Shown: positions 6,100 through 7,089 of the stretch, one piece after another
How the letters are laid out: every line of letters begins with the position of its first letter
Numbering within the stretch: position 1 is the stretch's first letter
Assembly (NCBI GenBank): GCA_902768715.1
Contig: CACXMH010000020.1
Coordinates: forward strand, 1 to 32,227
Direction: 5' to 3'
DNA length: 32,227 nucleotides
From: Fibrobacter succinogenes
Lineage (GTDB): Bacteria > Fibrobacterota > Fibrobacteria > Fibrobacterales > Fibrobacteraceae
Notes under the pieces: model-generated
The model's database searches: none
Told to the model about the DNA's origin: nothing
The model's input: only the letters and a program-made list of their open reading frames with translations
Made by a program: the position numbers and the translations under genes

Positions 6100-7089
6100 T
6101 TACTTATCCTCACCTAAATAGAATTTTGGGCAAATGCGCCCAGGCTCGAACCTGCAAAGGGAAAGGACTTCGCCTACCCCATTGGCCACAAACACGTGAC
6201 CTTCGGGCCCTACACCCTCTACAGGCGTTTTCCAGGGAAGCCAATTGCCTCTCCTAATTACCGCCAAGCCATCTTCGGCAAGGCGCAACACAGGATAATC
6301 TAGAACTTTATCTACAGGCACCAGGTTTTCGGCCGTCAGGTTCTCGCCCTTGACTGCATTGTCCAGGGTGATGTTCCCTATGCGGTGGCGACGAATCTGG
6401 GAAACGCAGCCGAATGTTCTCAGGGTCCGGGCCAAGTCTCGCCCGAGGGAGCGGATGTAGGTTCCCTTGGAGCAGATACATTCCAGGTCGAAGGTGGCAA
6501 AGCACTTGCCGGAGCAACCTTCGGTGACGCCGCCCTCCCCTACGATTTTCAAGGATTCGATGTGGATACGGCGGGGCTTCATCTCGAAATCCTTGCCCCG
6601 TTCCGCCCAGTCGCTGGCACGGCGGCCGTCGATTTTTACGGCACAGTAACGCGGGGGAACCTGGTCAATGTCGCCTGTAAACTGCGGGAGGACCGCTTCG
6701 AGGGCGGCACGGTTTATTGCTGGCAGGGAACATTCGCCCTGGATCCTTCGGTCGCCTTGTTCCCTCAGGATGACACCTTCATCAATTCCGAATTCCGAAT
6801 TCCGAATTCCGAATTCACCTTGAGCCACAACATCCCCGTCCCATTCCAGGGTGTCGGTCTCGTAGCCCAGATGGAGCCGGAAGGTATAGCACTTGTCCTT
6901 GGCCTCTACAAAAGGAAGCAGACGGGTGGCCCTGCCGATGGCGGCCACAATCAGGCCCGATGCCCGCAGGTCCAGAGTGCCCGCATGACCGACGCGCTTT
7001 GTAGAAAAGACCCTTTTCAGCGGGAAAAGGGCCTTGAAAGAAGTTTCACCGGGATTCTTGTCCAACAGGACAAATCCAGAAGGAGACAA
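6100..7089 (-). CDS. truB: tRNA pseudouridine-55 synthase with repeat-derived insertion
   Basis: 329 residues. The N-terminus GFVLLDKNPGETSF and the catalytic motif GHAGTLDLRASG (Asp40) identify TruB, which isomerises U55 in the T-loop of tRNAs. The later KGTYIRSLGRDLA block is also present. The start is TTG at 7087-7089, one nt after the rbfA stop, with GGGGA upstream; no ATG fits the conserved N-terminus. Residues about 92-119 are an insertion encoded by two dispersed repeats (7-bp units, then a GTCATCCTGAG element) between the conserved blocks WDG and the segment ending in VPPRYCAVKIDGR. The frame stays open, and both catalytic blocks are intact, so the enzyme is probably functional. Confidence 0.93.
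   Translation of the reverse strand: MSPSGFVLLDKNPGETSFKALFPLKRVFSTKRVGHAGTLDLRASGLIVAAIGRATRLLPFVEAKDKCYTFRLHLGYETDTLEWDGDVVAQGEFGIRNSEFGIDEGVILREQGDRRIQGECSLPAINRAALEAVLPQFTGDIDQVPPRYCAVKIDGRRASDWAERGKDFEMKPRRIHIESLKIVGEGGVTEGCSGKCFATFDLECICSKGTYIRSLGRDLARTLRTFGCVSQIRRHRIGNITLDNAVKGENLTAENLVPVDKVLDYPVLRLAEDGLAVIRRGNWLPWKTPVEGVGPEGHVFVANGVGEVLSLCRFEPGRICPKFYLGEDK
6741..6775. repeat. Dispersed palindromic repeat inside truB (GTCATCCTGAG ... GAAGGATCC type)
   Basis: On the minus strand it reads GTCATCCTGAGGG ... CCGAAGGATCC, with inverted ATCCT/AGGAT ends. This matches the well-known bacterial intergenic repeat style TCATCCTGAGC..GAAGGATC. Here it lies in the truB reading frame and encodes residues about 105-117. 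Confidence 0.7.
6784..6816. repeat. 7-bp tandem repeat (AATTCCG) x 4.7 inside truB
   Basis: Four exact copies of AATTCCG followed by AATTC. It encodes residues about 92-102 of TruB. Because the unit is 7 bp, gain or loss of one copy would shift the truB frame. Confidence 0.95.

Follow-up and report, generated by a model that had tools for sequence, protein, structure and literature searches.

A surface loop of TruB as a probable permissive site for in-frame palindromes and heptamer arrays in Fibrobacter

The truB gene of this Fibrobacter succinogenes genome carries a heptamer array and a palindrome side by side and within one unbroken reading frame, and we consider it highly probable that the surface loop of TruB in which they lie is a permissive site where in-frame insertions of the dispersed short repeats of the genus Fibrobacter survive. 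The stock of repeats filling the loop would include CGTC-type REPs, related GTCATTGC/GTCATTC palindromes, several kinds of 7-bp array and further short cassettes. Repeats would be inserted, or the loop exchanged between lineages by homologous recombination, blindly; changes that keep the frame in a tolerant loop would survive and the remainder would be purged. We infer that the added residues are neutral and lack structure, and that the repeats are moved by recombination in addition to fresh insertion.

The two repeats within truB

The window (the whole stretch analysed, 32,227 nucleotides) belongs to a metagenome-assembled source genome (G000) of 2.84 Mb in 114 contigs. The features discussed here are the following.

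6100 to 7089, minus strand: truB, tRNA pseudouridine-55 synthase, 329 aa (TIGR00431, PF01509; closest structure E. coli TruB, 1k8w)
6784 to 6816, minus strand: CGGAATT heptamer array, 4.7 copies, in frame, encoding EFGIRNSEFGI (residues 92-102), detected by TRF
6739 to 6775, minus strand: putative CGTC-superfamily REP, in frame, encoding VILREQGDRRIQ (residues 106-117), from the genome-wide pattern count
6727 to 6810, minus strand: predicted disordered loop and candidate permissive insertion slot, residues 94-121 (pLDDT below 50; length variation across Fibrobacter TruBs)
7449 to 7488, minus strand: intergenic 7-mer array (AGGTTAT) in the infB-rbfA spacer, the turnover control, detected by TRF

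The truB gene starts with a TTG codon immediately behind the rbfA stop, and its product matches the TIGR00431 profile with 200.7 bits (E 2e-59), reaching the curated equivalog score (cut-off 151). The best PDB match of its AlphaFold2 model was E. coli TruB (1k8w, E 7e-27), and the catalytic GTLD motif (G37, T38, L39 and the catalytic aspartate D40) is unchanged among the 50 TruB sequences compared. An open reading frame on the plus strand (6385-7200, 271 aa) was rejected as a gene, as it is antisense of truB and had no Pfam matches. The Rfam scan of the window matched only one tRNA, at 26039-26112 on the minus strand.

According to the sequence-only reading, two dispersed repeats had been captured side by side and in frame in truB, and this was confirmed by the array at 6784-6816 and the palindrome at 6739-6775. 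TRF reported the array with period 7, 100% match and consensus AATTCCG. The adjoining palindrome, with the arms TGTCATCCTGAG...GAAGGATCCAG, reads GTCATCCTGAGGGAACAAGGCGACCGAAGGATCC at 6741-6774 on the minus strand, the tag and tail (TGTC...CCAG) extending its span to the full 6739-6775. This copy comprises a TGTC tag, an ATCCT/AGGAT outer stem, GA/GA internal mismatches and a CCAG tail, and its inner hairpin is degenerate (core-shuffle z 0.13). Neither repeat is due to chance, since the pattern GTCATCCTGAG-N(3-30)-GAAGGATCC has 28 copies in the genome against none for the reversed-pattern control, and three tandem AATTCCG units are matched seven times against none in the control.

Between the flanking conserved blocks, the alignment has 38 residues here versus eight in E. 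coli TruB (1k8w) and nine in M. tuberculosis TruB (1sgv), in agreement with the earlier estimate of about 28 extra residues and pointing to an insert of some 29-30. A unit of 7 bp can be accommodated here since it is the full length of the insertion that is divisible by three. In the AlphaFold2 model (mean pLDDT 86.7), confidence is high around the insert and falls below 50 only at residues 94-121. The insertion falls in the gap separating conserved blocks, and the core of the enzyme appears from this model to have stayed intact, as had been proposed.

Repeat content and array length of the TruB slot

When the slot was defined as the segment between TDTLEWDG and FxGD(I/V), its length ranged from 22 to 110 residues across 70 distinct Fibrobacter TruB sequences, and 37 of these slots contained a recognised repeat, of at least eight kinds, with all frames open. 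The kinds are the CC, TTGC and TTC palindromes, a CCTGAG/GTCGAAGG palindrome, the CGGAATT, ACGAGAG and AGGTTCG arrays and a GCTGCAAATTGCAC cassette. In none of the 70 truB genes was a complete palindrome or a heptamer array counted outside the slot. The slot of the other Fibrobacterota genera is constant to within a few residues, and many Fibrobacter species carry a minimal TruB loop.

The contents of the slot turn over rapidly. Near-identical truB genes sometimes have unrelated loops, the sister pairs L179/L188 and L035/L206 have unrelated slot contents, and the slot of L160 is empty though this gene is nested in the array clade. On a tree of truB built without the slot, 13 state changes were needed for palindrome C, eight for the ACGAGAG array, five for the AATTCCG array and four for the TTGC palindrome, these changes being gains, losses or transfers counted together on a tree that is itself subject to recombination. 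EFGIRNSEFGID persists in two clades, and the composite slots of L027 and L037 contain several elements. We have also observed that among close relatives (the window, L009, L010, L011, L040 and L045) the palindrome core in truB is swapped for an unrelated core of different length, with the arms and the flanking array unchanged. A longer cassette, encoding KCVGRESQPCLHGYDRAQHLGLEQSESPKTRDES, is common to the truB slots of L037, L188, L191, L195 and L198.

A different role was proposed for the array by the sequence-only reading, in which slippage of the 7-bp unit would toggle truB on and off and, hence, tRNA pseudouridine-55. TruB is dispensable in E. coli, so that an off state could be viable, and the loss or gain of one or two units would end translation early, between codons 92 and 100 of the 324 that were read. 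However, with 4.7 units the array is short, and it measures 33 bp in the same frame in all eight available truBs that bear it, which are at species level and belong to more than one clade; these eight have accumulated nine point substitutions (one in L010, three in L207 and five in L206) without any gain or loss of units. The perfect periodicity is decaying in the same three genes. Every one of the four substitutions of L010 and L207 is synonymous, while 21% would be expected to be so per random change, and those in L206 include amino-acid changes. The earlier reading had named relatives that keep the residues without the DNA repeat as an outcome counting against it, and L010 and L207 come close to this, the protein being kept while the repeat decays.

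The fixed length of the array is not explained by lack of time, as 13-37% of the four-fold sites of truB differ between the window and the array-bearing L009, L010, L040, L045 and L011. Furthermore, the rbfA-infB spacer, about 0.65 kb from the truB array, contains AACCTAT-, GAGGTGT- or GATTAGT-type arrays in the same species, or there is no spacer at all. Because the spacer contents differ or vanish in species that share the truB array, intergenic arrays turn over whereas the truB array does not. With this control and the constant length in eight species-level truBs, we rejected the slippage switch, which we now regard as very improbable. From the sequences compared, the truB array is most probably held at fixed length by the reading frame and decaying to plain coding sequence, and the repeats in the loop seem to be accepted by the protein and not to serve as a switch.

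The palindrome family and its in-frame copies in HemC and other genes

The CC palindrome pattern was found in 58 of 61 Fibrobacter genomes, with up to 92 copies, and a sister palindrome, GTCATTGCGAG...GAAGCAATC, in 54 of the 61, the controls giving none in both cases. In the other Fibrobacterota genera, 23 of 24 genomes had neither palindrome. All 27 distinct copies in the source genome carry a YGTC tag (TGTC in 20 and CGTC in seven) and 26 of them a CCAG tail, and 23 of the 24 distinct copies folded have the ATCCT/AGGAT outer stem. The predicted fold consists of this 5-bp outer stem, a GA/GA internal loop and then an inner stem that varies in sequence and length; the inner stems vary freely yet are mostly self-complementary (mean core-shuffle z -1.9). 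In L068-L095, cores wholly different in sequence, and mostly self-complementary, lie within constant arms with GA/GA mismatches, so that whole inner stems seem to be exchanged or formed anew.

Mobilisation of the palindromes by a RAYT/IS200-type transposase was considered and rejected, because PF01797 is missing where palindromes are plentiful: it was found in 27 of 80 Fibrobacter genomes, but neither in the source genome nor in the palindrome-rich G069 and G062. By its tag, its AT pairs, its tail and the lack of a linked transposase, the truB palindrome would be classed as a CGTC-type REP, from which its split stem differs.

That both types of repeat are normally intergenic, as the sequence-only reading stated, is true only in part: seven of the 28 palindromes in the source genome are in frame within recognised genes, and so are several AATTCCG-type arrays. 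The genes with in-frame palindromes encode TruB, HemC, an SNF2 helicase, HrpA, an RsuA-family synthase, an aminotransferase and GrpE (in its N-terminal region); those with in-frame AATTCCG-type arrays encode TruB, an M18 aminopeptidase, a BamA-like protein and an 859-aa ORF. Around 1500-1580 of L071, an SNF2 helicase gene has a 7-bp array (DERRETRDER) beside a CGTC-type palindrome, in frame.

In the case of hemC, the slot sits between GQGILAIETL and AEMxxLKAL, and the palindromes in it differ by species (L219-L248; L081:693-1850). Across the genus, 15 of 29 HemC slots contain a complete palindrome and six more a tagged arm, and in all of these palindromes and arms GTCAT lies on the coding strand. 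The coincidence of the TruB slot with the predicted disordered loop, together with a HemC slot in unrelated flanks, indicates a filter that acts after insertion. These two points also bear on the idea that the DNA of the slot attracts insertions, as when REPs land beside REPs or arrays, whatever the tolerance of the protein. Of the 28 cases, 12 have a REP and a 7-mer array within 100 bp of each other where about one was expected, although this number is confounded by both being mostly intergenic, and the composite slots hold several elements each. Against this stand the predicted disorder of the TruB slot and the protein-defined slot in HemC, whose flanking sequence is unrelated, and we find such a preference unlikely.

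Nearly all in-frame REPs orient GTCAT along the coding strand. The reason may be that peptides read from those frames are hydrophilic (CHPERSEG, VILSEA), or an effect at the RNA level. Along with the retention of EFGIRNSEFGID by two clades, this bias suggests some selection on peptide or RNA beyond neutrality. A stronger version would be that repeats were recruited since a long variable loop benefits TruB and HemC, through stability, contact with tRNA or a chaperone, or regulation. The preference for hydrophilic frames would fit with this, as would an insert that is kept across species with only synonymous changes in L010 and L207. Nevertheless, sister genes have unrelated contents of widely differing length, many species get by with the minimal loop, the TruB insert is predicted to be disordered and unrelated enzymes share the pattern of repeat-filled loops, all of which makes a recruited function quite improbable.

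Returning to the permissive loop, it is possible, and we propose it only tentatively, that palindromes and heptamer arrays are being shuttled throughout the genus, partly by recombination of loop alleles between species, through fixed permissive loops of core enzymes. If this is true, the loops of TruB, HemC and other proteins would evolve faster than any other part of these otherwise conserved enzymes, and would preserve a natural record of how REPs move where no transposase is known.

Comparison with known repeat systems

Earlier descriptions of palindromes within the frame of core genes are for the most part from Rickettsia and a small number of Proteobacteria. The Rickettsia palindromic elements (RPEs; Ogata et al. 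2000, 2002) are described as inserted in frame in solvent-exposed regions of unrelated housekeeping genes, with orthologues carrying different element groups at one site (PMC10969869, PMC3767692). The Fibrobacter palindromes resemble them in both respects, being found in frame in unrelated core genes and as different elements at one orthologous site, and, as judged from the reading frames, they would have entered conserved protein genes (TruB, HemC, SNF2, HrpA, RsuA-family, aminotransferase) without breaking the frame. The ATGAC of RPE-4, RPE-6 and RPE-7, as given in PMC3767692, is the reverse complement of the Fibrobacter GTCAT, a comparison by motif alone. In contrast, the Fibrobacter elements belong to another phylum, measure about 25-45 bp versus about 100-150 bp for RPEs, and are mixed with 7-bp tandem arrays; within one genus, repeats of at least eight kinds have come to occupy the same slot. 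The Fibrobacter pattern is thus RPE-like behaviour mixed with heptamer arrays.

The CGTC-tagged REPs of Di Nocera et al. (2013) have an unpaired tag at one end (CGTC, TGTC or CCTC), AT...AT as first stem pairs, a CCA tail, an 8-9 bp stem with a loop of 4-5 bases and no dedicated transposase (PMC3733652). The Fibrobacter palindrome shares with them the unpaired tag, the AT start of the stem, the CCA tail and the lack of a linked RAYT/IS200; however, instead of a plain 8-9 bp stem it has a predicted split one (5 bp, GA/GA loop, variable inner stem). The CGTC superfamily occurs predominantly as head-to-head dimers; the 28 loci here include only two close palindrome pairs, both direct. The paper has no mention of Fibrobacter. 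It describes intragenic REPs in the truB genes of S. maltophilia, E. litoralis and S. alaskensis, where the REP type is unspecified, and an RPE-1 in the truB of R. conorii (PMC3733652).

The in-frame palindromes of Rickettsia and the REPs within truB of Proteobacteria and R. conorii make the basic phenomenon known (PMC3733652, PMC10969869, PMC3767692). What is new here is that it occurs in another phylum and is mixed with heptamers, and that one slot is refilled repeatedly and turns over rapidly. A literature search with the sequence of the truB element gave, among the papers listed, only unrelated ones, and a search for Fibrobacter palindromes or in-frame repeats, in a library with few of the subscription journals, found nothing relevant. 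This genus of rumen and gut bacteria, with about 80 species-level genomes, offers a tractable system in which to study the movement of CGTC-type REPs, for which no transposase is known, and it suits equally the question of how repeats give birth to disordered protein loops. It also calls for caution with proteins from MAGs, in which repeat-coded loops are real and not assembly errors.

Heptameric tandem repeats of other bacteria, such as GGGAATC in Xanthomonas, are dispersed, prefer about four units and are mostly non-coding (PMC4692102). The Fibrobacter 7-bp arrays are likewise dispersed, favour about four units and are largely non-coding, but their units are not G-rich, many different ones occur in a single genome, and stop-free AATTCCG arrays lie inside genes. 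The tandem repeats of Borgs, when located in ORFs, form intrinsically disordered segments, and their in-gene units are all divisible by three (PMC9879509); the Fibrobacter arrays are similar in that ORF-captured tandem repeats become disordered protein segments, and differ in that a 7-bp unit is not divisible by three. In a tandem-period survey of a 426-kb genome sample (window included), period 7 was the most frequent, with 26 arrays. Another 7-bp array in the window (ACCTACT, 4.7 copies, 12745-12777) overlaps a long open frame of the plus strand near the start of that frame.
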